A stretch of 32,373 bases of DNA from an uncultured Methylococcaceae bacterium (GTDB lineage Bacteria > Pseudomonadota > Gammaproteobacteria > Methylococcales > Methylomonadaceae), in assembly GCA_903918335.1 (NCBI GenBank), contig CAIXDX010000118.1, positions 1 to 32,373 of the forward strand, read 5' to 3'. The first letter of the stretch is position 1. The number at the start of each line of letters is the position of its first letter. The translations under genes and the position numbers were made by a program. This document shows positions 15,638 to 31,846 of the stretch, piece after piece. The notes beneath the pieces are model-generated. The model saw nothing but the letters and a program-made list of their open reading frames with translations. It searched no databases and had not been told where the DNA came from.

Positions 15638-16978
15638 TTAAGCTCTAATAATTCTTAATCGGAGCAAAAGGTAATAAATCAAACTCACAAGTACAAAACT
15701 AATATAGGGACCTACATCCAAATCATCAATCAATTGTGCAGCTACGCCGGTGTAAAGTGGATTAACTGAAAATAATGCCACTGAAATTGCTGAGACTAGA
15801 AACATAATAAAAAAACCTGTTGTAAAACCCTTTGGAGTGTATCTAGAATGTCTGCCATAAACAAACCAATGCACCAGTACAATAGCGGCCCATGGTGTAA
15901 CCCAATGGGCAAATAAAAATAAAAAATCTTCAAAGAATTCAACAAAAGACTGGCTTGCAAAAAGACTAATCACATAACCAATAACCGCTCCCAAAATGGC
16001 TGATGTGGGTCGTGAAAATTTGAATCCAAACGAAATTAATGTGTATGCAGCCGAATTATCATTCATTGCATTTGCAGGTATTGCTGTAAACCAAATGACC
16101 AACAATACAATAGGTGCATAGCTACCTGATAACTTTTGTAATCCCATCATTACACCCTCAGGCGTATGAGTAGCAAAAGCGGAGGCTGTCATGTAACCAA
16201 AAATGGCTAATATAGTTAAAGAAAGAAACAAGGCCATAAAAGTCAATAGAAACACTTTACTATGAGGCGTGCTATTAGGTAAATATCTTGTGTAATCAGA
16301 GGTACAAGTAGTCCATCCTAAGTTATAAGCACTTAATAGAATAAATGCAGATACCAGATTAGAAGAGCCAGTCGATGTTTCAAGTGCTGAAGGTAATCCC
16401 ACTTTATCAATAGAAACAAAGCCAATAATGATGAAGAATACCGCTAAAAGACTGCCGGTATATTTACCCGTAGTTTGAATGAGATGATGCCCATAAACAC
16501 CAATCACTAATTGCAATACAACTAATATAGCCAGGGCAAGCCACATAGGTACTGTAATATTATAGTGAGCTAATAAGACAACGAAAGCAGTAGCCGATAT
16601 GACATTATTAATAACATCCCAGCCAATTGCATTAAGCCAGTTTAAAAAAGCCGGCAACCTTTTCCCTGAAGCACCTAAAGCAAACCGACTAGCTTCAATT
16701 TGTGATAAGCCGGTTTTAGGTCCGATTACACTTGTTACTGCCGGTAATGCACTCCCAACCAAACTGCCGAATACAATAACAAACATAGCATCTACAAAGT
16801 CTAAACCCATCCCGGCAACCAACACGCCTATTAGCCAAGTAGCAATACCTGTATTACCCCCTAAAAACACCCAAAAAGGCTTTTCTATCGCTAATGTTTG
16901 CTCACTTTCTTGTACACCATCATTGATGAATGAATAATGAGTGTTTTCCATGGGAATATTTATACGCTTTAGCACCAT
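15638..16978 (-). CDS. NCS1-family permease (purine/cytosine permease-like)
   Basis: Inner-membrane transporter of 446 residues with about 12 hydrophobic segments. The N-terminal part (PFWVFLGGNTGIATWLIGVL) and the motif ALGASGKRLPAFLNWLNAIGWD are typical of the cytosine permease / nucleobase-cation-symport-1 family, which also includes the hydantoin carrier Mhp1 and allantoin carriers. The closest subfamily cannot be fixed here, so cytosine transport is not assured. It is the first gene of a minus-strand set with the CAX-like antiporter and the small exported protein, and is divergent from the cyclodipeptide synthase gene across 224 bp. That arrangement makes the cyclodipeptide, a cyclic amide like hydantoins, a possible substrate; this is inference. 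Confidence 0.85.
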   Translation of the reverse strand: MVLKRINIPMENTHYSFINDGVQESEQTLAIEKPFWVFLGGNTGIATWLIGVLVAGMGLDFVDAMFVIVFGSLVGSALPAVTSVIGPKTGLSQIEASRFALGASGKRLPAFLNWLNAIGWDVINNVISATAFVVLLAHYNITVPMWLALAILVVLQLVIGVYGHHLIQTTGKYTGSLLAVFFIIIGFVSIDKVGLPSALETSTGSSNLVSAFILLSAYNLGWTTCTSDYTRYLPNSTPHSKVFLLTFMALFLSLTILAIFGYMTASAFATHTPEGVMMGLQKLSGSYAPIVLLVIWFTAIPANAMNDNSAAYTLISFGFKFSRPTSAILGAVIGYVISLFASQSFVEFFEDFLFLFAHWVTPWAAIVLVHWFVYGRHSRYTPKGFTTGFFIMFLVSAISVALFSVNPLYTGVAAQLIDDLDVGPYISFVLVSLIYYLLLRLRIIRA

Positions 16979-17029: not shown

Positions 17030-17202
17030 CATAAACACTAAAAGTCTATTATTTTACTGGGTTTTTAGATGATATTAAATGATTTGAAATATTGTTTTTG
17101 TACCCTTACAAATAAAGCTAGATCTTAACAACATAATCATTCTGAAATATTCATATTTTTTATAACTTACAATAAATTAGTATTATATTTTTAATAGAAA
17201 TA

Positions 17203-17961
17203 ATGAATATATACATAGATGATAATTTAAATAAAAATAATATAGATATAGCAGAAAGTTTTTTTTCTACACCCAAACATCGTCCTTTTATAGCGATTAG
17301 TTTAGGAAGTACACCGCCTCCAATTGAAGTAGCTGTGCAAATTTTAAAATGGTCACTAATAAGCCATTCTCCAATAATCCCAATACTTTTTGCTGACGAT
17401 ATTGCAACTATAAATTATCGGGCATTTGGCGACAGTGAAACGAGAGCTATTAAAGAAGTTGATAAAAGTAAACGTAAGCATTTTTTAGTCTGGCAAGAAG
17501 CACTAAATTACCTAGAAAAAAACGAAAAGCCACGTGTACGTTTCATTAATTGGAAGGATATTTTAAACCCTGATGTTCAAGAACAACAAAATTTTGTGCG
17601 AGAAATATTTAATTGCAAGGGTGAATTATATAAATCTATCTTAACATTGGTGGAAAGTTTTATTAGCTCAGCAGGTAAGACTTACACTTTGAAACGTGGA
17701 TTAATAATGGCCGAATATGTTATTCAAGAATTACCATCACTTATTTTTGGGATCAAGTATGATGAAATAAATTATCAGATGACATTATATCCCACATACA
17801 CTTCTCCAAAAGAATTTCAAAACTTTCTCGTTGCAGTAATAAGAAACCCTGATTTCAAATTATATTTCAATAAATACAATAAGAACGAATTAGAATATTG
17901 CAAATTTATTCATATGATAATTTCAGATAAGAATAAAAGAAATGAAAAAAACGACATATAG
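17203..17961 (+). CDS. tRNA-dependent cyclodipeptide synthase (CDPS)
   Basis: Predicted to make a cyclodipeptide (2,5-diketopiperazine) from two aminoacyl-tRNAs using a class I aminoacyl-tRNA synthetase-like fold. Matches to the known enzyme AlbC, from memory: FIAISLGS holds the nucleophilic Ser (Ser33, AlbC Ser37); YRAFGDSETRAI matches the AlbC helix around GRSAQEAE; AEYVIQELP holds Tyr172 and Glu176 (AlbC Tyr178, Glu182) with the same four-residue spacing and following Pro; EINYQM holds Tyr191 (AlbC Tyr202). Position 40 is Ser (Ser36) and position 203 is Gln (Gln192), which would place it in the Ser-Tyr-Gln subgroup rather than the AlbC-type Asn-Tyr-His or X-Tyr-Pro groups. Length 252 fits. 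No signal peptide. The stop lies 20 nt inside the next gene. Product identity cannot be told from sequence. Confidence 0.83.
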   Translation: MNIYIDDNLNKNNIDIAESFFSTPKHRPFIAISLGSTPPPIEVAVQILKWSLISHSPIIPILFADDIATINYRAFGDSETRAIKEVDKSKRKHFLVWQEALNYLEKNEKPRVRFINWKDILNPDVQEQQNFVREIFNCKGELYKSILTLVESFISSAGKTYTLKRGLIMAEYVIQELPSLIFGIKYDEINYQMTLYPTYTSPKEFQNFLVAVIRNPDFKLYFNKYNKNELEYCKFIHMIISDKNKRNEKNDI

Positions 17962-19963
17962 AAATCTTTTTTTAACTTGTTTAATTTACTCATTATTTCA
18001 GGATGTAATTGCATCAGAATCAAATAATGATATTGGTTTAGACGATGAGTTAAAATTTCTCGCAGCAGAAAGGCAATTAGTTATAACAGCCTCAAAACAA
18101 GAAGAAAATGTTTCAAAAACAATCGCGACTACTTCAATTATTACACAAGAAGATATCCGTCAAATTGGTGCTCGTAATTTACTTGATGCATTAAAACTAA
18201 TACCCGGTCTTGGAATAACCGAATCAATGCTTGGTGTTAGGGAAATTGAAGTTCGAGGTGTTAAAAGTTTAGCGTCAGAGAAAGTGCTATTTATGCTAAA
18301 TGGACACCCGCTAGATCATAATTTGCAAAACGCAGGCAGTACCTGGGTTTATGATGACTTGCCCGTCGATAATATTAAACGTGTTGAAGTCATTCGCGGA
18401 CCTGGTTCAGCGCTTTACGGAGCTAATGCTTTTTTAGCCGTTATTAATATCATAACCATGACAGCTAAAGATCTAAATGGTTTTCAAGCATCCACTGGTT
18501 TTGGTAGTTTTGATACTCAACAATATAGAGCAGGCTGGGGAAAGCAATTTTCTAATACCGCCGAAGCGGCCGTTAACTTTAATTATTCATCAACTAATGG
18601 GATACAAGCTCCCGTTTCACAGGACATATTAGGCTCTAGTGGTTTAGCTCCAGGAAATACTCAGCTTAAAGAAGGACGCACGGATCTTGAGTGGAATTTA
18701 GGTTACAACGATTTTAAATTAGATGGTCGATTTATTAATAAACCCACAGGAGCATTTGTAGGTGCAGCTTATGCACTTAGTGATCAAAGTAAACAAAATT
18801 ACGAAGATTATTTTCTCAGACTAAGTCGCAATTTTAATATTACTGAAAAACTTTCAATAAATACACAGGCCTATCACGATAGTTTCAGTTTTGATAATAC
18901 ATTTCAATTACTGCCAAATCAGTTTACTAGAACCGCATTAGTTGATAACCGTAATGGTGGTGAAATTCAAACAAATTATAAAATCACTAACAAACAAAAT
19001 TTAATTGCTGGATTTTCTTATTCTGAAGATATACAAAGTAATCTTTTATCTGAAGCGGGACCTAACACATATCAAATGGTTAACACCCCACTTTTCGGTA
19101 GTAACAGAATTAGAACTCGATGGGGCTTATATGCTCAAGATGTATGGGATCCGTTTGATAATTTAAGATTAACGATAGGTGGACGATATGATCAATATAA
19201 TGATTTTGGTGGTACCTTTAATCCTAGATTAGGTTTTAACTGGGAGTTTATTAAAAATTACTCTATTAAATCGTCGTATGGTACTGCCTACCGCGCACCC
19301 TCTTTTGGTGAAATGGATTTAAGAAATAATCCTGTTTTAGCTGGAAATCCAAACCTTCTTCCGGAACAAGCACAAACCTTTGAAGCAGGACTTATTGGAC
19401 ACCCAACTACTAATCTAATGGCTCAAGCGACATATTATCATACGGATATTACCCAAATCATCAGCACCATTCCAGGCACTATTACCCAGTCAGAATACGC
19501 TAATAACGGCCATATGTTATCTGAAGGTGTCGAACTGGAAAGTAGGTATGATTTTGAAGGTCAGTTAAAAGGGAGTTATATTTCATCGAATGTTGTCTAT
19601 CAACATACTATTCAAAATAATTTACAAGTCCCTGATGTACCCAATGCGCGTGCTAACTTAATAGCAAATTGGGCCTATGACAGGCAATGGAGTGTCTATG
19701 GCCATATGCTTTTCAAAGATTCAACAAGTCGTACTATAGGGGATATTCGAAGCGATGTACCATCGTATGCGGTTTTCGACTTGAGTTTACTAGGTAAGCA
19801 ATTTTTGAATAAACGATTTGACGTTAGTTTTACCATTTATAATTTATTAGATAAACGTGTTTATGATCCATCACCTCTAACAGCAGGAAATGGAAATTAT
19901 CAATTAAGCGATTATCAGCAATCGGGGCGTGCCTTTTTTGGACACATAAATTTACGTTACTAA
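17942..19963 (+). CDS. TonB-dependent outer-membrane receptor
   Basis: Outer-membrane gated barrel of 673 residues that takes up a ligand using TonB energy. A signal peptide (MKKTTYRNLFLTCLIYSLF, cleavage near IAS) is followed by a TonB-box-like QLVITASKQE, then the plug domain (about residues 45-160) with DALKLIPGLG, REIEVRGVK, and the closing RVEVIRGPGSALYG. The rest is beta-barrel, including SSYGTAYRAPSFGEMDLRNN, ending in GHINLRY with a terminal aromatic residue as barrels require. It overlaps the CDPS gene by 20 nt, so the two are cotranscribed and probably coupled. The ligand is unknown: known relatives take siderophores or cobalamin, but the context suggests a peptide-derived or amino-acid-derived compound. 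Confidence 0.92.
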   Translation: MKKTTYRNLFLTCLIYSLFQDVIASESNNDIGLDDELKFLAAERQLVITASKQEENVSKTIATTSIITQEDIRQIGARNLLDALKLIPGLGITESMLGVREIEVRGVKSLASEKVLFMLNGHPLDHNLQNAGSTWVYDDLPVDNIKRVEVIRGPGSALYGANAFLAVINIITMTAKDLNGFQASTGFGSFDTQQYRAGWGKQFSNTAEAAVNFNYSSTNGIQAPVSQDILGSSGLAPGNTQLKEGRTDLEWNLGYNDFKLDGRFINKPTGAFVGAAYALSDQSKQNYEDYFLRLSRNFNITEKLSINTQAYHDSFSFDNTFQLLPNQFTRTALVDNRNGGEIQTNYKITNKQNLIAGFSYSEDIQSNLLSEAGPNTYQMVNTPLFGSNRIRTRWGLYAQDVWDPFDNLRLTIGGRYDQYNDFGGTFNPRLGFNWEFIKNYSIKSSYGTAYRAPSFGEMDLRNNPVLAGNPNLLPEQAQTFEAGLIGHPTTNLMAQATYYHTDITQIISTIPGTITQSEYANNGHMLSEGVELESRYDFEGQLKGSYISSNVVYQHTIQNNLQVPDVPNARANLIANWAYDRQWSVYGHMLFKDSTSRTIGDIRSDVPSYAVFDLSLLGKQFLNKRFDVSFTIYNLLDKRVYDPSPLTAGNGNYQLSDYQQSGRAFFGHINLRY

Positions 19964-19983: not shown

Positions 19984-20826
19984 ATGAGTATTAATACGTT
20001 TACAAATATAAATCGATGCACTATAAAAACACTTCTGAGTGTGTTTTTTACTTTAGTGCTTTTAATTCAAACAGCGCCTGCGGGTACAACGAGTACTGTT
20101 TTTTTCTATAATCCAGAAAGTAGCGTTGACAATTTTGCTGCCTTAAAATCTGAATTTGATGATTATTTATCTAATCTAGGTGAATTTGCATTTCAACCAT
20201 TTAGTGAACGAGCGACTTTCGAAACTGCCCTAACAGAAAAATCTCAAGGCATTTATCTTTTATCAAGTTGGCACTATACCCAGTTAAATTCTAAAACGCC
20301 GTTAGAAGCTAAACTAGTCGGTGTATCCAAAGGTGAATTACAGCAACGTAAGATTCTTACAGCTAAAGATATTAGTACTATTTCCTCATTATCAGGAGCA
20401 ACCATTGCAGGAGCAGGTAGTGACGAATATATTAAAGGTCAACTACAACAGATGCTTGGTTCTGAATATTCGGTAATTATTCCTAAGATTAAATTATTAA
20501 GTGTACCCAAAGATATCGATGCGTTAATGGCCGTAGGTTACGGTGTGGCTGGTGCAGCAATTTCTTCAGAAACTAGTTTTAATAAACTAGCTATGATCAA
20601 TCCAAAACAACACGCACAATTAAAAAAACTAGCGGATGGTGAGAAAAACTTTTTACTTATTGCTGCGGTTACCAAAGTACAGAAAACAGATGAAACTCCG
20701 CTACTAAAAGTAATTGAAGGGATGCAAGATCAAGAAATTGGAGAGCGTAAATTAAAAATGTTAGGGCTTGATGGTTGGAAACGCATAGATGCGTTGGACG
20801 CCTCTTTATCAAAACAACTAAGATGA
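19984..20826 (+). CDS. PhnD-like periplasmic substrate-binding protein
   Basis: A 280-residue exported protein with a signal peptide (core LLSVFFTLVLLIQTAPAG). The mature protein resembles the phosphate/phosphonate-binding (PhnD-like) periplasmic family, with an N-terminal strand STVFFYNPESS and mid-protein LSGATIAGAGSDEYIKGQL and AVGYGVAGAAISSETSF, where the family has its ligand hinge. It may bind any small ligand; such domains often serve as sensors paired with histidine kinases. It starts 20 nt after the receptor gene and ends in an ATGA overlap with the next binding-protein gene, so the receptor, this protein and the next form one translation-coupled set. Confidence 0.7.
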   Translation: MSINTFTNINRCTIKTLLSVFFTLVLLIQTAPAGTTSTVFFYNPESSVDNFAALKSEFDDYLSNLGEFAFQPFSERATFETALTEKSQGIYLLSSWHYTQLNSKTPLEAKLVGVSKGELQQRKILTAKDISTISSLSGATIAGAGSDEYIKGQLQQMLGSEYSVIIPKIKLLSVPKDIDALMAVGYGVAGAAISSETSFNKLAMINPKQHAQLKKLADGEKNFLLIAAVTKVQKTDETPLLKVIEGMQDQEIGERKLKMLGLDGWKRIDALDASLSKQLR

Positions 20827-21797
20827 TTGCGCAAATGAAAATGAACTTCTCTAAAAGTATTAATAGACTTATCTTAAAGCTAATTTTTCAATTGGTGATC
20901 TTATTTTTAATGGGAGTCGTTCCTGCGTTTGCAGATAATCCTAGTAAAATCTTTATTGTGAACTCTGACGCAACTGTTACTAAATATCGAGAAGTAAAAT
21001 TAGCATTTATCTCACAATTAAACAAACAAACTAATAGTACCGTAGAGTTTACTATCGATGACAATCATACTCCTGAGCAATTAGAAAAACTTATTAAAAG
21101 TGAAAATCCAGATTTGATTTTCAGTATAGGTTCTCAAGCTTATCAACTATCAAGTCAATATGGAGAAAATAAACCGATATTATTTTCATCGGCTATTAAT
21201 TGGCAAAGATTTGGACATAGAGACAATACTTTTGGCATAGCTAATGAATTATCTATGTCACAAGAATTATCATTATCGCGCTACGTTCTTCCTGGTCTAA
21301 ATCGCATTGGTGTGATTTATGATCCTAAATTTAATACAGAACGCATTGCTGAAGCGCGTAAACAAGCAACTGAGCTTGGCTTAACTCTTGTTGAGCTAAA
21401 TAATTTTGAGGCTGACTCTTTAGAAAAAAATGTTGAAGAATTGCTTTCAAAAATCGATATCCTCTGGCTCATTGCTGATCCAAGTGTACTGTCTGACAAA
21501 GATACTGTTGAAAAAATCTTTAATCTCAGCACAGAACACAAAAAACCAATAATTACTTACAGCAATGCATTTATGAGCTATGGGGCAAGCTTAATTATAG
21601 CCGCTGATACTCCAACAATGGGCCGACAAGCGGCTAATTTGGCTCAGAACATTTTATTACATGAACGAATCAAAGAAGTTGTTCAAACACCCGCCGGATC
21701 TCATATTGCCCTAAATGTTTGTCAGTTGAATAAAATTAACATTCGTTACAATGCTGATGCTTTGGATGCTGTAAACCAAATTATCGAATGTAAATAG
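20823..21797 (+). CDS. TrpX-like ABC substrate-binding protein (COG2984 family)
   Basis: Periplasmic binding protein, 324 residues, of the ABC_sub_bind family, whose known members bind tryptophan or tyrosine. A signal peptide (LILKLIFQLVILFLMGVVPAFA) precedes two Rossmann-like lobes: the first has NPDLIFSIGSQAYQLSSQYG, and the second has RIGVIYDPKFNTERI and KIDILWLIADPSVL. ATG 20823 overlaps the previous stop (ATGA); an upstream in-frame TTG at 20775 would place 16 extra residues before the signal peptide. It has a single copy of the domain, whereas a later gene in the run has two. It could feed the ABC permease at 29623, or act as a ligand sensor for the histidine kinase that follows. Confidence 0.82.
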   Translation: MIAQMKMNFSKSINRLILKLIFQLVILFLMGVVPAFADNPSKIFIVNSDATVTKYREVKLAFISQLNKQTNSTVEFTIDDNHTPEQLEKLIKSENPDLIFSIGSQAYQLSSQYGENKPILFSSAINWQRFGHRDNTFGIANELSMSQELSLSRYVLPGLNRIGVIYDPKFNTERIAEARKQATELGLTLVELNNFEADSLEKNVEELLSKIDILWLIADPSVLSDKDTVEKIFNLSTEHKKPIITYSNAFMSYGASLIIAADTPTMGRQAANLAQNILLHERIKEVVQTPAGSHIALNVCQLNKINIRYNADALDAVNQIIECK

Positions 21798-21866
21798 TTA
21801 TTAACAAATCTAAAATAACTTTATAGAAATTGGAATTCAACGTTGAAAAACTCTAAGGCAGACCGT

Positions 21867-24320
21867 ATGAGAAATTCTCAACAACGACCAAGAAATAGTA
21901 TTCGATGGAAGCTACTCTCAACAATGATAGGACTGATTGTTGCACTGGTAGTAACCATGACAAGTATTGAAGTTATCTTACAGAAGAAATCACTAGAAAA
22001 TGAATTAGGTAAGCGGATTAACTTAATGAAAGTCAACTTGATTGAACGTGGTAACGCCATGTCCAACCTCATGTTGACACAAGTAGAAAATGATGTTGCC
22101 GCTTTTAACTTTTCACGGATCACAGAAAATTTACATAATACGATCAAAGAATCACCGCTATTAGATTATGGGATTCTTATGAATAACGAAGGTATTGTAT
22201 TTATTCATACTAGTCATCCTGAACTCCAACAAGAAGTTTTACAGGACGAACAGAGTCATTACGCCTTAGCGCAACAACAACTAACACATCAAGAATATCC
22301 AGACAATAACGTGACTGAGTTCATCTTACCCATACATTTTGGGACAAAGCAATGGGGTGTCTTAAGGCTTGGATTTAGTTTAAAAGAGTTACAGCAAGAA
22401 ATATCTAATTCTAGAGAGGAAATTACTCATACGACTCAGAATATGATTACAACAACTACTGTCATCGCGTTATTCTTTGTTTTAATAGGTTCAATTATTG
22501 TACTAGTCATCTCAACAACACTATCAAGACCATTAATACGACTAACAGCGTCAGTTAAAGAATTAGCACGTGGTAATTTTGATTCCGCAACCCAACTTTT
22601 AGGCAACCATTCAGGTAATACTAAAACTGATTTTAAAGCCGAAGGTGAAATTGGTGAATTAGCAAATTCTTTTCTTGAAATGGCAAATGAAATACAACAA
22701 TCTCATCAAAATTTAGAAGAATATAACAGGACTTTAGAGCAAAAAGTAAAAGAACGAACGCATGAACTAGAAGAGGTCAATGAAAAATTAAAAGAACTTG
22801 ATCAAATGAAAACTAACTTTCTTTCTACTGTTTCTCATGAATTACGTACACCTTTAACTTCTGTTATTGGCTTTGCACGCATTATGCAGAAAAAGTTTGA
22901 GAGCGTACTTTTTCCTGCATTAGCAGAAAACGAAGACAAAAAAGTTATGAAAGCAATTCGGCAAGTTATAGATAATACTGAAATTATTATTGAGGAAGGA
23001 GAAAGACTGACTTCTTTAATTAACAACGTCTTAGACCTTGCTAAAATGGAAGCAGGACGGGTTGATTGGAATATTACGGAATTGAATATTGAAACTGTCA
23101 TTAATCGAAGTATTGCTTCCACCTCTTCATTGTTCGCTGTTAAACCTGTCAAACTAGTTACAGAAATACCTACAAACTTACCTCTATGTTTGGGCGATTA
23201 TGACCGACTCATTCAGGTTGTTATCAACCTTATCTCTAATGCCATTAAATTTACAAATGAGGGTAAAGTTACCATTAAAGTTGAATACCTCAATGCTGAA
23301 ATTATAACCAGCGTTATCGATAGTGGTACCGGTATAAAAAAAGAAGATCAACCATTAGTATTTGAAAAATTCAAACAAGTTGGCGACACCTTAACTGATA
23401 AACCACAAGGAACGGGCTTAGGGTTACCAATTTGTAAAGAAATCGTAGAGCATTTAGGTGGGCGTATTTGGGTAGAAAGTGAAATTGGGCTTGGCAGTAC
23501 ATTTTCTTTTTCTTTACCCGAATCAATACAACAAAATGAATATAGCAACACATGTGATGATATTGATTACACATCTAAAGGGCTATTAGTAAGCAAAGAT
23601 GGTGAAGAAGTCAGTTATATTTGGCAAACAAATGGTAACAATTTAGAAGACGCTTTAAGTAATAGTTTGGCTCTATTTAATAAACCAAAGCACAAAACCA
23701 ATCCATGCATTTTAATTATTGATGATAATTTAAACATTCGGCAATTTCTTCATCAAGTTTTAAGCACTGCAAGCTATGATGTTCATGAAGCTAGTAGTGG
23801 AACTGAAGGTCTCGAAATCATAAAAAACCTCCTACCTGACCTCATTATTCTTGATGTAAAAATGCCGCAGCTAAACGGCTTTAAGGTGGCTGTAAGACTG
23901 CACGCTAACCCTCTGACACTTCATATTCCTATTATTCTTCATACCATAGCCGAAGATCATGCTCTAGGTGAACAATTAGGTATCGATTGCTATTTAAATA
24001 AACCCGTCAAAGATGACGTTTTATTGGATGCCGTCAAACAATTGCTAGAAACACAAAAAACTCGTAAGAAAATATTATTATTTATAGCAGACAACGATAA
24101 AAGACAACGCTGGGTGAGTTTATTGACTCAATATGGACTTGAAACCGTAGCAACTCAAAACATAGAGGACGGCATTTCTGCGGCGACAGCATTTGATCCG
24201 CAACTTGTAATCGCTGACACAGCATTAGTTCAACAATATAATATTATTGAAAAAATTCGCGATGAGCATCGTTTAGATAAAATAGTATTCACTTTACTTG
24301 ACGAAACCAACTCTGTTTAA
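21867..24320 (+). CDS. Hybrid histidine kinase: Cache sensor, HAMP, HisKA, HATPase, receiver, truncated receiver-like end
   Basis: Inner-membrane sensor of about 817 residues. Order (numbered from TTG 21843): TM1 near 22-45, a periplasmic Cache-like sensor (about 47-195, with LDYGILMNNEGIVFIHT), TM2 near 203-226, HAMP, a coiled coil, then the phospho-acceptor His332 in VSHELRTPLTS. The ATPase domain has NLISNAIKF, DSGTGIKKED and GTGLGLPICKEIVEHLGG. A receiver follows with IIDDN, phospho-acceptor Asp671 in LIILDVKMP, and Lys in YLNKPVK. The C-terminal 85 residues look like a second receiver that stops before its Lys and last helix. ATG 21867 with AAGG upstream is preferred to TTG 21843. It is the central sensor of the run. 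Confidence 0.9.
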   Translation: MRNSQQRPRNSIRWKLLSTMIGLIVALVVTMTSIEVILQKKSLENELGKRINLMKVNLIERGNAMSNLMLTQVENDVAAFNFSRITENLHNTIKESPLLDYGILMNNEGIVFIHTSHPELQQEVLQDEQSHYALAQQQLTHQEYPDNNVTEFILPIHFGTKQWGVLRLGFSLKELQQEISNSREEITHTTQNMITTTTVIALFFVLIGSIIVLVISTTLSRPLIRLTASVKELARGNFDSATQLLGNHSGNTKTDFKAEGEIGELANSFLEMANEIQQSHQNLEEYNRTLEQKVKERTHELEEVNEKLKELDQMKTNFLSTVSHELRTPLTSVIGFARIMQKKFESVLFPALAENEDKKVMKAIRQVIDNTEIIIEEGERLTSLINNVLDLAKMEAGRVDWNITELNIETVINRSIASTSSLFAVKPVKLVTEIPTNLPLCLGDYDRLIQVVINLISNAIKFTNEGKVTIKVEYLNAEIITSVIDSGTGIKKEDQPLVFEKFKQVGDTLTDKPQGTGLGLPICKEIVEHLGGRIWVESEIGLGSTFSFSLPESIQQNEYSNTCDDIDYTSKGLLVSKDGEEVSYIWQTNGNNLEDALSNSLALFNKPKHKTNPCILIIDDNLNIRQFLHQVLSTASYDVHEASSGTEGLEIIKNLLPDLIILDVKMPQLNGFKVAVRLHANPLTLHIPIILHTIAEDHALGEQLGIDCYLNKPVKDDVLLDAVKQLLETQKTRKKILLFIADNDKRQRWVSLLTQYGLETVATQNIEDGISAATAFDPQLVIADTALVQQYNIIEKIRDEHRLDKIVFTLLDETNSV

Positions 24321-24326
24321 AAAACT

Positions 24327-25871
24327 ATGATTCCAGACATAAAACTAAAACGCGTTTGTCAAAAAGGTAAATCAGCTGAACTTATCAAGCAATTTTGTAC
24401 AAATCGTTCCGACACACTTAGTATTGTTGAACCAAACTCTACCCTTGTATACGGTTCTATTTCTGAAGGTACCCGCCATGCGATTAAAGTAAATTCTGAT
24501 ACTATTCTAGGCTGGGTTATAGGAGATTCTGACGATGCTATTTATTTAGCAGAGTTAGTAAATTACATCGTCCAGAAAGAATTAGAAAGTAAATTACTCG
24601 CACAGGATACCCTAAGTAAATACAAAGAATTATCGTTACTCTATGAGCTAGGTGAAAAAATATCAAACTGCATTGATATTGATCAACTTGCTAAATTAAC
24701 CATAAATGAGGCTCAAAACTTATTAAATACCAATCAGCCTTTACAAATAGGTATTTTATTAAAAGATCAATCTGATGATAAGTTGGTAATTTTTGCAGGT
24801 AAAGGTGATATTTTTCCTGTTGGCTCAAAATTAGATGCAATTGATGGAATCACGCAATATGTTTTAGCGTCTGGCTCTGCTGAGATCGTTAATAACGTTC
24901 ATGATGATATTCGCTATCAAACAAATCCCGGTGAATTATTAAATATCCATTCTTTATTATGTACACCCATTAAAACCAGTGATCACACTTTTGGTGTTTT
25001 AAGCATCATCAGTATTCAAGAAGTATCGTTTAATGCCGCTGAATCTAAAGTTTTAAACTTACTCGCTTCCCAAATTGCCACAGCAATTGGTCGGGTACAC
25101 TTAATTAATGAACGTGTATCACAAGAAAGATATCAAGAGTCTTTGACTTTATCAAAAAACATTCAAATGGGCATGTTGCCTACCGCTTTCCCAAGATTTA
25201 CAGATGGTAGCAAATTTGATTTATTCGCTTTTATGCAACCCGCTAGAGAAGTGGGTGGGGATTTTTATGATTTTTTCAGACTTAATGCCACAGCATTATT
25301 AGTTGTCGTAGGGGATGTATCTGGCAAAGGAGTTCCAGCGGCACTATTCATGGTGCGCGTAATAACCTTAGTTAGGGCATTAGCAAAACAACATGATGTG
25401 GTTAGCGATATTTTAAATGCCTTAAATATAGAACTATGTCGTGATAATGATGCGATGATGTTTGTAACCATGTTCATTGCTACACTTGATCTAGAAACCA
25501 ATCAATTAAGCTACAGTTATGGCGGACATAATCCGCCTTTATTATTATCAAATTACGGTATCGTATCAATGCTACCAGGTGATTCTGGCATGGCTCTAGG
25601 TATATTAGATTCATCGCATTATTGCTTAGAGTTAATCCAAATAAATAAAGGTGACAGTTTAATTTTGTACACTGATGGCATTAATGAGGCCATGAACATT
25701 CATTATGAAGAATATGGGGATGAGCGTTTTAGTCAATTAGTCACCGGTTTAGATGCTTTAAATGCGCAAGCGTTAGTTGAGACCATTACTAAAGATGTGC
25801 TCAATTTTACAGTAGGAGCCGAGCAATCTGATGACATTACCTTACTAACATTAAAAATTGCTAAAAATTAA
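24327..25871 (+). CDS. GAF domain plus SpoIIE-type (PP2C) serine phosphatase
   Basis: Partner-switching phosphatase of 514 residues, RsbU-like. The N-terminal 110 residues are mostly helical with no family call. A GAF domain follows (about 115-265, including TSDHTFGVLSIISI), then a linker and the PP2C domain with REVGGDFYDFF, GDVSGKGVPAALFM, YSYGGHNPPLL and LILYTDGINEAMN, which carry the metal-binding Asp residues. It should remove phosphate from a STAS-domain protein, the natural candidate being the STAS gene at 28397. It starts 6 nt after the kinase gene, so they are cotranscribed. No transmembrane segment is visible. Confidence 0.92.
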   Translation: MIPDIKLKRVCQKGKSAELIKQFCTNRSDTLSIVEPNSTLVYGSISEGTRHAIKVNSDTILGWVIGDSDDAIYLAELVNYIVQKELESKLLAQDTLSKYKELSLLYELGEKISNCIDIDQLAKLTINEAQNLLNTNQPLQIGILLKDQSDDKLVIFAGKGDIFPVGSKLDAIDGITQYVLASGSAEIVNNVHDDIRYQTNPGELLNIHSLLCTPIKTSDHTFGVLSIISIQEVSFNAAESKVLNLLASQIATAIGRVHLINERVSQERYQESLTLSKNIQMGMLPTAFPRFTDGSKFDLFAFMQPAREVGGDFYDFFRLNATALLVVVGDVSGKGVPAALFMVRVITLVRALAKQHDVVSDILNALNIELCRDNDAMMFVTMFIATLDLETNQLSYSYGGHNPPLLLSNYGIVSMLPGDSGMALGILDSSHYCLELIQINKGDSLILYTDGINEAMNIHYEEYGDERFSQLVTGLDALNAQALVETITKDVLNFTVGAEQSDDITLLTLKIAKN

Positions 25872-25920
25872 TCGATCATTATCTACAATAACTTCCTAGG
25901 CCAATAAAGAGATTCAAACC

Positions 25921-26337
25921 ATGGCTGATTACCATTTTTCTAAAATAATCACGAATAATTTAGAGGAACTGCTTGTATTAGCAGAAGACGTTGAATTATT
26001 TGCTGAGCAAACAGAATGGTCACCTGCTGTTACCATGCAAATTAATCTTGTTATCGAAGAGTTAATCGTAAATACCATTAATTATGGTTATTCAGACGCA
26101 AGAGTGGGAAGCATACAAATAACTATCAAATCTACTACTCAACGCATTGTTCTTGAGATAAAAGATGACGGTGATGCTTATAACCCATTACAAAATGATA
26201 TGCCAGATACAACCTTAGAGATAGAAGATAGACCCATTGGGGGCTTAGGCATATTTTTAGTAAAAAACTACATGGATACCTTCGACTACGCTTATAGCGA
26301 AGGTCATAATTGCATCAATCTAAGTAAACAACTATAA
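25921..26337 (+). CDS. RsbW-like anti-sigma-type serine kinase (HATPase_c)
   Basis: A 138-residue GHKL ATPase of the SpoIIAB/RsbW type. The N-box EELIVNTINYGY, the G1 box KDDGDAYNP and the G2 box PIGGLGIFLVK are intact, so it is likely an active kinase. Its expected substrate is the STAS protein at 28397. Usually this kinase holds a sigma factor, but no sigma factor is visible in the window, so the held partner is unknown. AAGAG precedes the ATG. It lies between the phosphatase and the fused binding protein. Confidence 0.88.
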   Translation: MADYHFSKIITNNLEELLVLAEDVELFAEQTEWSPAVTMQINLVIEELIVNTINYGYSDARVGSIQITIKSTTQRIVLEIKDDGDAYNPLQNDMPDTTLEIEDRPIGGLGIFLVKNYMDTFDYAYSEGHNCINLSKQL

Positions 26338-26344
26338 ATTTAAA

Positions 26345-28354
26345 ATGAGTGAAACAAGTAAACGCATCGGTTTATCCCTAGCCTTAATAATTCTCTGCAG
26401 CTCGTTATTATTATGGTCAGATAGACATAATCGCCATTCTGATTCTGAGGTAACACCCAGTGTTTCTAAAGAAATTCCTATAGCTTTACTACAATTAAAC
26501 ACAAACCCAATTACAGATGAAATGAGAGCTGGCATATACGATGCGTTGGGCGCCAAGGGCTTTAAAGAAGGTAGCAACATTAAAATTACCTATTACAATC
26601 CCGAAGGTGATTTACCTACAGCCAACTTAATGGCACAAAAAATTACAAGTGGCGAATATAAAGTCGCCATCTCTATTACAACATTAATGCTCCAGACCCT
26701 AGCTAATGCAAATCGGTCTAGCCATGTTACCCATGTATTTGGTGCAGTCACCTCCCCTATCATTGCTGGTGTAGGTGTAAAAGCGATTGATAGTTTAGAT
26801 AAACCCCCTTATTTAACCGGTGTTGGCACACCACAGCCCGTTAAAGAGATATTTCGGGTAGCAAAACAACTCAATCCAAATTTAAAAACTGTAGGTGTCG
26901 TTTGGAATCCAGCAGAAGTAAATTCTGAATTTTGTACAAAACAAGCACGGGAAGTTTCAGCGGAATTAGGCTTAACTTTATTAGAAGCCCCCATAGAACA
27001 AGCTAAAGACATCCGCGAAGCCGCACAATCATTAGTAACACGTGGTGTGCAAGCATTTTGGACTGGTGGAGATGCGACAGTTAATTCAAATGTACATGCA
27101 CTGATAGAAGTATCCACTAGCGCAAAAATTCCAGTTATCTCAAACATTACAGGCCACGCTAAACAAGGTGGCTTATTCGATTATGGGTCTGATTACCATG
27201 AAGTGGGCGAACAAGTAGGCCGTATAACTGCCGACATATTAGGAGGTAAAGATCCTAGCACTATCGCAATTACTAATTACACCCCTGAAAAAGTTATTCT
27301 AAATGAACAAGTTCAGAAGACTCTTAAAGAATCATGGACTTTTACGGATGATCTATATAAAAAAGCCATCACTATAATTGATGAAAATGGCAAAGTAAAT
27401 TCTACTAATACCAATACCATCGAAACAAACCCACAATCTAAAGAGCCTAGCATTATCATTGATCCCGATAAGCACTATAAAGTTGGTTTAGCTTATTTTG
27501 CGCCTGAACCCGGTATTGATTCAGTATTAGCCGGTTTAAATGCACAATTAAAACTTTTAGGTTTAGAAGAAGGCAAAAACTTAAGCTTTAAGACTATGCA
27601 TGCCCAAGGTGAAATTGCCCAAATCTCTACAATAGGTCAAGTATTAGACAGTAGTGATGTAGATGCCATTTTAACCTTAACTACACCAGTTCTTCAGGGG
27701 GTGGGCATGATGGCAAAACATAAGCCCGTCGTTTTTACTTATGTAACTGACCCGATTGCAGCCGGTGCAGGAAAATCTTTTACCGAGCATTTACCCCATT
27801 TGACGGGTATAGGCTCATTTCCACCTATCGAAGACATGCTAACGGTTACACAAAAAGTATTACCTAACATTCATAAAATAGGCACTTTATATAATCCTAG
27901 TGAAGTTAATTCAGTAAAAGTAGCCACAGTGATGCGAGATCTTTGTAAACAAAAAGGTTTCGAGTTTATCGAAGCACCCATAAATACAACGGCTGATGCC
28001 GTGCAGGCTGCTCAAAGTTTAGCCGCTCAAAATGTAGAAGCCATATTGTCAGTCAGTGACAATACGATGTATCAAGCCTTAGATGCTATCAGTAACGTTG
28101 CGACAAAAAGTCATATACCTGTGATATTAGATCAACCTGAGTTTATTGATCATGAAGCTCTTATGGTAGTGGGTGTGGATTATAAAGAAAGTGGCACTTC
28201 AGCTGCAGAACCACTAGCTCAAATTTTAACCGGTACTAATCCTGGTTCTATTCCATTTAAAAATGTGAGCAAAAAAGTCATTCTATTAAACGCTAAAGTC
28301 GCAAAAAACTTAAATATAGTCTTTACCGATGAAGTTCGGGCCTTGGCTAAATAA
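26345..28354 (+). CDS. Tandem-duplicated TrpX-like substrate-binding protein
   Basis: A 669-residue fusion of two COG2984-type binding domains behind an N-terminal membrane anchor or signal (SLALIILCSSLLLW). Domain 1 spans about residues 45-335 and domain 2 about 375-665, joined by a short linker rich in Asn, Ser and Thr. Repeat matches include VVWNPAEVNSEF with TLYNPSEVNSVK, LLEAPIEQAKDI with FIEAPINTTADA, and AAQSLVTRGVQA with AAQSLAAQNVEA. No lipobox is evident at the Cys in LIILC, so it is probably a membrane-anchored periplasmic protein. Normal family members have one domain of about 330 residues. It precedes the STAS, permease and ATPase genes and is likely the main ligand-binding part of that transporter. 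Confidence 0.88.
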   Translation: MSETSKRIGLSLALIILCSSLLLWSDRHNRHSDSEVTPSVSKEIPIALLQLNTNPITDEMRAGIYDALGAKGFKEGSNIKITYYNPEGDLPTANLMAQKITSGEYKVAISITTLMLQTLANANRSSHVTHVFGAVTSPIIAGVGVKAIDSLDKPPYLTGVGTPQPVKEIFRVAKQLNPNLKTVGVVWNPAEVNSEFCTKQAREVSAELGLTLLEAPIEQAKDIREAAQSLVTRGVQAFWTGGDATVNSNVHALIEVSTSAKIPVISNITGHAKQGGLFDYGSDYHEVGEQVGRITADILGGKDPSTIAITNYTPEKVILNEQVQKTLKESWTFTDDLYKKAITIIDENGKVNSTNTNTIETNPQSKEPSIIIDPDKHYKVGLAYFAPEPGIDSVLAGLNAQLKLLGLEEGKNLSFKTMHAQGEIAQISTIGQVLDSSDVDAILTLTTPVLQGVGMMAKHKPVVFTYVTDPIAAGAGKSFTEHLPHLTGIGSFPPIEDMLTVTQKVLPNIHKIGTLYNPSEVNSVKVATVMRDLCKQKGFEFIEAPINTTADAVQAAQSLAAQNVEAILSVSDNTMYQALDAISNVATKSHIPVILDQPEFIDHEALMVVGVDYKESGTSAAEPLAQILTGTNPGSIPFKNVSKKVILLNAKVAKNLNIVFTDEVRALAK

Positions 28355-28396
28355 AAATAAATACCCGCGATAACACTATTTATTAAGAGATCTGAA

Positions 28397-29626
28397 ATGG
28401 AAATTACGTCCAAACTCATTAATGATGAAACCATCATTAAACTAAGCGGTAGACTAGACGCCGCCTGGAGTAGTTCTGTAGATAAAGCCTTACAAGATAC
28501 TATCTATGAGGGCTCACATAGAATCGCTTTAGATTTAGCACAAGTCAGTTACATTAGTTCTGCGGGTATCAGAGTACTCGTCATACTAATAAAAAACCTT
28601 AAAGCACTGGGGGGTACTTTTCGACTTATCAATGCCTCACCGGAAGTATCAGATGTTTTGAATTTAGTGGGCTTTACGCAATTATTATCAACACTTAAAC
28701 AAAGTACAGTTACTCATGCACCATCCAATTCGCAACCAGAATCTCAAATATTACACCTTGCTGATAATGACTACTCTGTTTATACCTTAGATATCACTGC
28801 CAGCCAAATAGGCCAAGTAATTGGCGATGCGTCATTACCTAGCCATGAACTAAAGATGACAACTTTGCCAGTTAATCATGATAGCTGGCTTATTGGACAA
28901 GGGTGTCTAGGAAATAGCCCCTACGATACAAATAGTGGTGGCGAATTGTTAGCAGTGTCTGGTTTAGCAATTGCTTTACCCGGTGATGCAGAACAAGCGG
29001 ACTGGATACAAAAAGAACAAGAACTCACCCCGCAAGTTGGTCTTTTTCATGGCCTTAATGTTAATGGAAACTATCGTTATTTACTTAGATTCGGTGAAAC
29101 CGCTGGTGCATTGTCACTAAAACTCAGTGAATTAACTAAAGCCGCATTAGAAATTTGCGCTTCAGATACCGTGTCATTTGTGGCCTTAGCAGAAACAGCG
29201 CATTTAATTGGCGCAGTCGCCCAATTATCTCCTGAACAATATCCTGAAGACTTTTTTTCCTTTCCAAGCATACGCGATCGTTTGCTATTTACTGCAGAAC
29301 CAGCCTATGCAAACGAAACCTGTTTAATAATTGGGGTAATTTCAAGAAAACCTGATCAGCTATTAGCTAGTCAAGTTAGACCCTTAGCTGATGATTCTGA
29401 ACTTAGCATACATGCCCATGCTGGCATAGTGCCGTTTAATCCTATTAAAAAAGGCTACATTGAATTAGGGGATTCTTTAGATAAATTTATGAGCACACAA
29501 ACAATCCGTGGAGTTTTACATTTATTAAACGATGATAGAGACGGTGTAGGTGTAGGGGAAAGTTATCTGCGCAGAGGTGCTTTATGGTGTGCGCCTGTTA
29601 CTTTTAATGGAGAAAACCGAGTATGA
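28397..29626 (+). CDS. STAS-domain protein with a large unrecognised C-terminal domain
   Basis: A 409-residue cytoplasmic protein. Residues 1-100 form a clear STAS (anti-anti-sigma) domain, with KLSGRLDAAW, ALDLAQ and YISSAGIRVLVIL; Ser55 aligns with the Ser that RsbW-type kinases phosphorylate. Residues of about 115-400 form a separate region I do not recognise, containing DSWLIGQGCLGNSP, LRFGETAGALSLKL, HAHAGIVPFNP and LHLLNDDRDGVGVGESYL. Canonical SpoIIAA proteins stop at about 115 residues. The gene has AAGAG upstream of its ATG and overlaps the permease gene by 4 nt (ATGA), suggesting its output acts directly on the ABC transporter rather than on a sigma factor. That is an inference. Confidence 0.78.
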   Translation: MEITSKLINDETIIKLSGRLDAAWSSSVDKALQDTIYEGSHRIALDLAQVSYISSAGIRVLVILIKNLKALGGTFRLINASPEVSDVLNLVGFTQLLSTLKQSTVTHAPSNSQPESQILHLADNDYSVYTLDITASQIGQVIGDASLPSHELKMTTLPVNHDSWLIGQGCLGNSPYDTNSGGELLAVSGLAIALPGDAEQADWIQKEQELTPQVGLFHGLNVNGNYRYLLRFGETAGALSLKLSELTKAALEICASDTVSFVALAETAHLIGAVAQLSPEQYPEDFFSFPSIRDRLLFTAEPAYANETCLIIGVISRKPDQLLASQVRPLADDSELSIHAHAGIVPFNPIKKGYIELGDSLDKFMSTQTIRGVLHLLNDDRDGVGVGESYLRRGALWCAPVTFNGENRV

Positions 29627-30558
29627 CACTATTAATAGGCGCATTAACTTTAGGCATAATTTTATCTTTATTAGCACTAGGTGTTTACATATCCTATCGA
29701 ATCTTTGATATTGCTGACATTACCGTAGATGGCTCAATTACCTTTGGCGCTGCTGTTAGCAGTGTGCTGTTAGTCCAAATGGGTGTGCATCCACTATGGG
29801 CGACACTGGCAGGCTTTTTAGCAGGTGCTATAGCCGGTACTGTCAGTGGCATATTACAAACCCACTTTAAAATTAATCCGCTGCTGTCAGGTATCTTAGT
29901 GATGACCGGCTTATACTCGGTTAATTTACATGTAATGGGGCGAAGTAATATACCCTTTTTAGGCACAGTAACCCTGTCTACCTATTGTGAAAAAATAGGT
30001 AATATCGTTTTTGGTGGCAACGAAATCCTCTTGATGGGATGGACGGTTTCAACAACTGATTTAATGACGCTTATCCTAATGTTTTTATTAGTTAGCAGTA
30101 TCTCCTTAGTCTTATGGTTATTTTTTCATACCGATTTAGGGACAGCCATGCGCGCTTCTGGCGATAATCCACAAATGATAAGAGCACTGGGTGGTAATGT
30201 TGAATACTACAAAATATTTGGTTTAGCGCTATCAAATGGCCTAGTAGGATTAGCTGGCGCTTTATGGGCACAATATCAAAATTTTGCAGATGTACAAATG
30301 GGTATTGGCATGGTGGTTTGGGGCTTAGCGAGTGTCATTATCGGAGAAGCTTTAGCCGGAACAGCCAGTGTAGGTACGGCAATTATAGGCACTATCATTG
30401 GCTCAATTTTATTTAGACAATTAGTGGCTATCGCTTTATCGTTTGGCTTAAATCCAAATGACTTAAAATTGATAACCGCCCTATTCGTATTTGCCGCACT
30501 AATTTTACCCAATATGCTCAGTAAATTATCTGTTGGTAAACGCAAGGTGGCGCTATGA
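29623..30558 (+). CDS. ABC transporter permease (COG4120 / BPD_transp_2)
   Basis: Inner-membrane permease of 311 residues with about eight to nine hydrophobic segments. The opening LGVYISYRIFDIADITVDGS and the later TDLGTAMRASGDNPQMIRAL and GLVGLAGALWAQYQNFADV match the permease partner of TrpX-like binding proteins, related to the LivH/LivM group. It overlaps the STAS gene (ATGA) upstream and the ATPase gene (ATGA) downstream, so all three should be made together. The likely substrate class is aromatic amino acids or related compounds, from knowledge of the family; the true substrate is not established. Confidence 0.88.
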   Translation: MTLLIGALTLGIILSLLALGVYISYRIFDIADITVDGSITFGAAVSSVLLVQMGVHPLWATLAGFLAGAIAGTVSGILQTHFKINPLLSGILVMTGLYSVNLHVMGRSNIPFLGTVTLSTYCEKIGNIVFGGNEILLMGWTVSTTDLMTLILMFLLVSSISLVLWLFFHTDLGTAMRASGDNPQMIRALGGNVEYYKIFGLALSNGLVGLAGALWAQYQNFADVQMGIGMVVWGLASVIIGEALAGTASVGTAIIGTIIGSILFRQLVAIALSFGLNPNDLKLITALFVFAALILPNMLSKLSVGKRKVAL

Positions 30559-31406
30559 ACAATCAACAATCTAACGCTAATTTAAATCCTGCTCTGGTTC
30601 AACTGACGGATGTCTTTAAAACCTTTAATGCCGGAACCGTTAATGAAGTTCGCCCCATGCAAGGGGTTAACTTAACAATAACCGAAGGTTCATTTGTTAT
30701 TGTGCTTGGCGGTAATGGTTCTGGAAAATCAACTTTACTAAATGCAATTGCCGGTAGTTTTATGATTGATACCGGTAAGATTGCATTAAATGGAGAAGAC
30801 GTAACGCAATGGCCAGAACACAAACGCGCCACGTTAATAGGTCGGGTATTTCAGAACCCTTTCTCTGGTACAGCACCCTCCATGTCTATTTTAGATAATT
30901 TTTCATTAGCGGCCAAACGCGGCAAGTTTAGAGGTTTAAGTTGGGCGCACTCGTCTAATTTACAAGATGAATTAAAAGATCGGGTAAGTGAACTAAAAAT
31001 GGGCTTAGAAAACCGATTGGATACAGCCATTGGTTCATTATCCGGCGGTCAAAGACAAGCCTTAACTTTATTAATGGCTACTTGGCTAAAACCAAAGTTA
31101 CTCTTATTAGATGAACATACCGCAGCACTTGACCCCAAAAGTGCCGATCAAGTCATTGCATTAACGGAACAAATAATCTCTAAAGAAAAATTAACCACGC
31201 TTATGGTTACCCACTCTATGCAGCAAGCAATTAATTTGGGTGACCGGATTATCATGATGCATAAAGGAAATATGTTACATGACGTTAATGCGCATGAAAA
31301 ACAACGTTTACGCATCGATGATTTACTGTCTAGATTTGAAAATGTAAGACGCAGAGAATTATTAGATGAAAGTGTGGCCGATTTATTACGACTAAGATAT
31401 ATTTAA
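30555..31406 (+). CDS. ABC transporter ATPase (COG1101 type)
   Basis: Cytosolic ATPase of the transporter, 283 residues. It has Walker A GGNGSGKST, the signature LSGGQRQALTLL, Walker B with LLLLDEHTAALDP, and the switch His in MVTHSMQQA. The gene begins in an ATGA overlap with the permease gene. It is the partner expected for the TrpX-like binding protein and permease. The sequence shows no odd residues in the catalytic motifs, so it should be active. Confidence 0.94.
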   Translation: MNNQQSNANLNPALVQLTDVFKTFNAGTVNEVRPMQGVNLTITEGSFVIVLGGNGSGKSTLLNAIAGSFMIDTGKIALNGEDVTQWPEHKRATLIGRVFQNPFSGTAPSMSILDNFSLAAKRGKFRGLSWAHSSNLQDELKDRVSELKMGLENRLDTAIGSLSGGQRQALTLLMATWLKPKLLLLDEHTAALDPKSADQVIALTEQIISKEKLTTLMVTHSMQQAINLGDRIIMMHKGNMLHDVNAHEKQRLRIDDLLSRFENVRRRELLDESVADLLRLRYI

Positions 31407-31459: not shown

Positions 31460-31846
31460 ATGAGTAAAAAACTACTAATAACCGATGATGAACCTCATAT
31501 TAGGTTATTACTTGAACAAGCACTTGAAGACCTAGAAGATCATGATGTGGAATTTTTCTTTGCTGAAAATGGTGAAATAGCTTTAGAAATTATTGAAAAA
31601 GAAAAACCACAATTAGTATTACTTGATGTAATGATGCCCAAAATGAATGGTTTTGATGTGTGCAAAACTGTTAAAAAAGACTGGGGCATGGATGATGTTT
31701 TTATCATTATGTTAACCGCTAAAGGCCAAGAATATGATAAAGAGAAGGGCCTAGAAGTTGGCGCCAATTTTTATATAACCAAGCCATTTAATCCCGATGA
31801 AATCATGGCCCACGCCCTAAAAGTATTTGACATTGAATTAGATTAA
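31460..31846 (+). CDS. CheY-like single-domain response regulator
   Basis: A receiver domain without an output domain, 128 residues. The acidic pocket is TDDEP, the phospho-acceptor Asp lies in LVLLDVMMPKMNG, the switch Thr in IIMLTAKG, and the Lys in YITKPFNP. It could accept phosphate from the histidine kinase at 21867 or act as a phosphate sink, though which of these is not seen. It starts 53 nt after the ATPase gene without a clear Shine-Dalgarno sequence, and its stop codon overlaps the next ATG (TAATG), coupling it to a carbonic anhydrase. Confidence 0.9.
   Translation: MSKKLLITDDEPHIRLLLEQALEDLEDHDVEFFFAENGEIALEIIEKEKPQLVLLDVMMPKMNGFDVCKTVKKDWGMDDVFIIMLTAKGQEYDKEKGLEVGANFYITKPFNPDEIMAHALKVFDIELD

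Follow-up and report, generated by a model that had tools for sequence, protein, structure and literature searches.

A cyclodipeptide synthase gene overlaps a TonB-dependent receptor gene at the head of a candidate sensory unit in methanotrophs

The window, as we call the whole stretch of DNA analysed, comprises 32,373 nucleotides from an uncultured Methylococcaceae bacterium (genome G000). An earlier note, made from the letters alone, had pointed to a 20-nt overlap between a cyclodipeptide synthase (CDPS) gene and a TonB-dependent receptor (TBDR) gene, and this overlap is real: on the + strand, the CDPS reading frame runs from 17203 to 17961 (252 aa) and the TBDR frame from 17942 to 19963 (673 aa). 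The genes that follow, from the TBDR through a CheY-like receiver, lie on one strand and are tightly packed. The features of the locus are as follows; G029 is a near relative that also carries the CDPS, and G013 is a sister species that lacks it.

17045-17062 (approximate), + strand: spacer element 5' of the unit, TCTATTATTTTACTGGGT; kept in G029, and found in G013 before the resident kinase
17203-17961, + strand: CDPS of the XYP subfamily, assigned from Pfam, solved CDPS structures and catalytic residues
17942-17961, + strand: overlap of the CDPS stop and the TBDR start, 20 nt, ATGAAAAAAACGACATATAG; phase as in 4 of the 5 other CDPS-positive genomes
17942-19963, + strand: TBDR, with plug (58-164) and barrel; BtuB/CirA-like by sequence, under the family cut-offs
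19984-20826, + strand: PhnD-like periplasmic binding protein (PF12974, under cut-off)
20823-21797, + strand: ABC_sub_bind (PF04392) periplasmic binding protein; 4-nt overlap with the PhnD-like gene
21843-24320, + strand: hybrid sensor kinase, sCache-HAMP-HisKA-HATPase-REC; a chimera with its break near residue 315-320
24327-25871, + strand: GAF-SpoIIE (PP2C) phosphatase; resident output module
25921-26337, + strand: HATPase_c_2 (RsbW-like) switch kinase; resident output module
26345-28354, + strand: double ABC_sub_bind (PF04392) binding protein; resident module
28397-29626, + strand: STAS-domain protein; resident module
29623-31406, + strand: ABC permease (BPD_transp_2) and ATPase; resident module, present in the CDPS-free sister species too
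31460-31846, + strand: CheY-like receiver; end of the resident module

The unit thus reads CDPS, TBDR, two binding proteins and hybrid sensor kinase, with the CDPS/TBDR pair at its head. The CDPS matches Pfam PF16715 (E=2.6e-7, 31.1 bits, above the cut-off of 27) and TIGR04539 (E=4.9e-7, 29.5 bits, under the cut-off of 45), and its nearest solved structures are CDPS chains, 7qaq and relatives (E=3e-11). Catalytic residues S33, Y172, E176 and Y196 are present, as is the Y196-P197 pair that marks the XYP subfamily as defined in PMC5816076, and the window enzyme is predicted to form a cyclodipeptide from two aminoacyl-tRNAs. Between the window and G029, with silent sites near saturation in every case, dN and dS are 0.48 and 1.48 for the CDPS (dN/dS about 0.33), 0.13 and 1.65 for the receptor, and 0.09 and 1.44 for the PhnD-like protein. 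The catalytic set (S37, Y178, E182, Y202 and P203 in AlbC numbering) is identical in all six CDPS genes of the order described below; given this invariance and the dN/dS of about 0.33, we conclude that the gene is kept by selection. Though constrained, it changes more rapidly than its partners, the pattern to be expected for an accessory or specificity-changing gene. AlphaFold models built from two-row alignments were too poor for use, both for the CDPS (pLDDT 43) and for the PhnD-like protein (pLDDT 32.7).

The receptor carries plug (PF07715, 75 bits) and barrel (PF00593, 162 bits) domains, no N-terminal signalling domain was detected in it, and its start at 17942 yields a signal peptide that is credible as judged by eye. 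The window has no Rfam match, so the cobalamin riboswitch that would mark a BtuB-like receptor is absent. Ahead of the CDPS, any inverted repeats are weak and promoter matches do not exceed chance. The NCS1 permease gene beside the CDPS (15638-16978; hydantoin-type transporters) was considered as a partner of the unit and set aside, because the CDPS-negative G013 has NCS1 and G029 retains only a remnant. This remnant lies 5' of the CDPS in G029 (L015 about 2200-2450), and the gene is intact in the window and in G013.

We searched 311 genomes of the Methylococcales with a profile built from five CDPS sequences and found related genes in six: the window's genome, G029, G599, G601, G609 and G610. 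Among 61 near relatives, only the window's genome and G029 have the gene. No relatives were found in plasmids or phages, and a phylum sample of 399 genomes held no further CDPS. Scans of 84,980 named genomes used narrow patterns, which are not proof of absence, and returned no match with a single CDPS sequence; a two-row alignment brought up G029's contig alone.

In all six CDPS-positive genomes, which span two genera, the CDPS lies directly 5' of this TBDR. In five of them the two reading frames overlap, always with the same phase, by 20 nt in the window, 23 nt each in G599, G601 and G609, and 32 nt in G610, where these lengths assume the upstream TBDR start that precedes the signal peptide; in G601 an alternative start lies just past the CDPS stop. 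The sixth, G029, has a 13-nt gap and no overlap. This recurrence of same-phase overlaps exceeds chance. On a TBDR tree of 22 rows, the presence of the CDPS amounts to one change, a value as low as which none of 500 shuffles reached, with weak support for the CDPS-positive group (58/60). The single change and the shared position suggest that CDPS and receptor have probably long been inherited together, the CDPS having been gained and possibly lost.

These data bear on whether the CDPS was simply dropped beside the receptor without functional meaning. Such a chance arrival would agree with the frequent horizontal transfer inferred for CDPS genes (Giessen & Marahiel 2014, PMC4159871) and with the identity between the window and G029 enzymes, only 47% against 79% for their receptors. 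However, it has to account for the same place in 6/6 cases and two genera, for same-phase overlaps and for one change on the receptor tree, and we consider it very improbable. The earlier note would have conceded a chance insertion had the receptor proved to be conserved with its binding proteins and never with a CDPS; the order-wide survey found every CDPS gene 5' of the receptor, and we reject that explanation. The recurrent adjacency likewise supports the note's view that co-transcription and a functional link are likely, although the siderophore picture that it attached to them fared less well, as discussed below.

We then compared the locus with that of sister species G013, which shares the neighbouring genes CAX and NCS1 and the output module from SpoIIE to CheY, and which at this locus is without the CDPS, the TBDR and the two binding proteins. 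The G013 kinase has a 4HB_MCP-HAMP-GAF input, whereas that of the window has sCache-HAMP. Residues 1-314 of the window kinase match, at 68-78% identity, kinases encoded after the receptor cassette in genera g299/g302, and match none of those in its own genus, while its core groups with its own genus (support 100/100). The chimeric kinase and the comparison with G013 therefore indicate that the sensory half changed jointly with the receptor and the binding proteins, the CDPS standing before them. The window, G029 and G013 have a spacer element, TCTATTATTTTACTnGGT, in common, which locates the swap: on one side lies a resident upstream region, on the other the resident kinase core. On the simplest view, the CDPS, the receptor, both binding proteins and the kinase sensory half arrived jointly and were spliced to the resident core; judging from these alignments, a resident kinase in the window's lineage exchanged its own input side for this unit. 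Binding protein and hybrid kinase form a unit here, as in LuxPQ, and this unit recurs across genera.

Two further observations concern the exchange of modules. In family f4 (L016 9676-11454, L079 4164-5936), the partner of the receptor and binding proteins is a HAMP-SpoIIE phosphatase, similar to the window kinase along about 350 aa, so that the input swaps between output types. Separately, when window 21843-31406 is compared with L015 7327-16884, dS is about 0.02 for the SpoIIE, RsbW-like, STAS, permease and ATPase genes, 0.17 for the double binding protein and 0.23 for the kinase, with dS >0.8 in both flanks; this block reflects a recent exchange of output genes between two species.

The receptor also occurs without the CDPS. 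It is found with the same binding proteins in a neighbourhood of the same type in G633, G611, G600 and G605, and with the same binding proteins and a HAMP-SpoIIE protein in G051, G450 and G453; eleven genomes of genus g291 have a PhnD-ABC_sub-TBDR set without a CDPS or an adjacent kinase. Given so many sets that lack it, the synthase is an accessory, and the receptor cannot depend on it everywhere. In G600 (L078 2451-8826), the TBDR, PF04392 and kinase genes are split over several frames, which suggests either decay of a CDPS-free cassette or assembly errors. The g291 loci (L083 2394-3707 and similar) repeatedly have a divergent PF06032 gene, of the S-methyl-thiohydantoin desulfurase-like family, beside the CDPS-free set, and a cyclic-amide ligand for that set is conceivable.

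What the enzyme makes can be approached through a characterized relative. The XYP enzyme CDPS 91 of Methylovulum miyakonense produces cFF (51.5%), cFY (36.1%) and cFL (8.2%) in E. coli (Gondry 2018, PMC5816076). The pocket table of that study lists P1 FGLAWSLL and P2 LNYSTYA together for an enzyme that accepts F and F/Y; the entry stands without an enzyme number next to a Parcubacteria entry, and fits CDPS 91. The G599 gene has the same P1, and the same P2 when T-Y-A is read directly from YPTRYA, where the aligner gapped the last column; the position mapping used also recovers the published Parcubacteria P1 motif. By these alignments, the G599 enzyme appears to share the pocket pair of CDPS 91, which makes it probable that G599 is M. 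miyakonense or closely related to it. The window pockets, P1 FALAWSLT and P2 LSFSTTS, are similar but not identical to the characterized pair, so that the window product is a prediction. On the ligand side, the only PDB relatives of the window's PF04392 protein, 6hni, 3lkv and 3lft, have Tyr, Phe or Trp bound (PMC6816091). In our reading of the alignment, the window protein has Ser and Thr at the two side-chain-selecting positions, and its pocket may therefore be wider.

The siderophore-like scheme of the earlier note holds that the cyclodipeptide or a derivative binds metal and that the TBDR imports the complex after synthesis and release. A synthesis gene coupled to a TBDR and periplasmic binding proteins is indeed the pattern of siderophore synthesis and recapture operons, and pulcherriminic acid, which derives from a cyclodipeptide, binds iron. 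However, no oxidase or other tailoring enzyme that could create metal ligands was seen in the unit or among the window genes scanned, no Fur box matched the E. coli-type consensus with up to 3 mismatches, and the receptor scores 153.5 bits on the TonB-dependent siderophore receptor profile TIGR01783, under the cut-off of 223.5. Unlike in siderophore operons, no dedicated permease or ATPase travels with the unit, and its partner is a sensor kinase. We therefore regard metal recapture as unlikely, and favour sensing because next after the receptor and binding proteins comes a kinase whose sensory half moved along with them.

Our leading proposal, which we hold to be as apt to prove right as wrong, is that the cyclodipeptide is a self-made signal that re-enters through the TBDR and is detected by the kinase. 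The CDPS would join two aminoacyl-tRNA residues, probably one of them aromatic, into a product like cyclo(Phe-Phe) or cyclo(Phe-Tyr). This would leave the cell, be recaptured at low concentration by the receptor, and bind one or both periplasmic binding proteins, PhnD-like and PF04392. The hybrid kinase would report binding through its periplasmic sCache region, and the response would presumably run through partner switching, involving the SpoIIE phosphatase, RsbW-like kinase, STAS protein and CheY. Several points weigh against this scheme. The unit has no exporter gene; a molecule of cyclodipeptide size could pass through porins, so that TonB uptake needs a reason; and the difference between the window's pockets and those of the characterized enzyme leaves the product uncertain. 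Its main weakness is the number of same-clade receptors that have the same binding proteins and no CDPS (in G633, G611, G600, G605 and g291), which would have to listen to others, unless the ligand is not the CDPS product.

That number leaves a strong rival, in which an environmental ligand is what the receptor, binding proteins and kinase detect. The CDPS would then be an accessory with another function, its product acting for example outside the cell or in competition with that ligand, and would stay in the operon because the same conditions make it useful. Most related receptor/binding-protein sets lack a CDPS, as this rival predicts, and similarity in the kinase sensory half comes out about equal for G633 and G611, which lack the CDPS (74-78%), and for CDPS-positive genomes (70-73%). 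Against it, every CDPS of the order sits at exactly this place, mostly overlapping the receptor gene, and aromatic residues are indicated both by the PF04392 protein and by the CDPS pockets. We consider an environmental ligand plausible but less probable than self-sensing.

If the signal is self-made, the best reading by analogy may be that of LuxP/LuxQ with an outer-membrane gate, which fits better than siderophore recycling. LuxP/LuxQ with LuxS constitutes AI-2 sensing in Vibrio, and shares with the proposed system a cell-made small molecule, a periplasmic binding protein and a hybrid sensor kinase with a receiver. The window unit differs in its proposed cyclodipeptide signal, its outer-membrane TBDR and its two binding proteins, and in an output that leads to SpoIIE/RsbW/STAS genes. 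Somewhat more tentatively than self-sensing itself, we suggest a quorum-type system of methanotrophs with a tRNA-dependent cyclodipeptide autoinducer and TBDR-gated uptake, in which synthase, receptor, binding protein and sensor half swap between kinases. The earlier note knew of no described tie between a CDPS and a TonB receptor, which was too strong: TBDRs and other transporters are already mentioned in general terms as frequent neighbours of CDPS genes (PMC4159871). In what that source says of these clusters, a tailoring enzyme stands near almost all bacterial CDPS genes, export is assumed and no sensor-kinase cassette is described, unlike in the window, where no tailoring enzyme was seen. 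The account of CDPS 91 in PMC5816076, as far as it covers this protein, treats the enzyme only, with no mention of a receptor or kinase. Among titles and abstracts of the open-access literature, we found no unit joining a CDPS or cyclodipeptide to quorum sensing, a binding protein or a histidine kinase; one may be described elsewhere.

Little is known of what bare cyclodipeptides do in nature, and since they also form abiotically, it is disputed whether they act as signals. If our reading is correct, the genetic link between a dedicated synthase and a dedicated receptor and sensor kinase would make the idea of a cyclodipeptide as signal testable, the more readily as the product is already known for a probable member of this CDPS set and the genus, probably Methylovulum, is cultured. 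Small autoinducers would then join the ligands of TonB-dependent receptors, and some methanotrophs would produce, re-import and detect a chemical signal of their own, not a siderophore.

Finally, in other gammaproteobacteria (L022 9385-11746 in G275 and L017 4386-6688 in G089), a CDPS lies directly 5' of a PAS-type histidine kinase, with an 8-nt overlap in L022 followed by a receiver-domain gene. These pairs may represent an independent link between a CDPS and a kinase.
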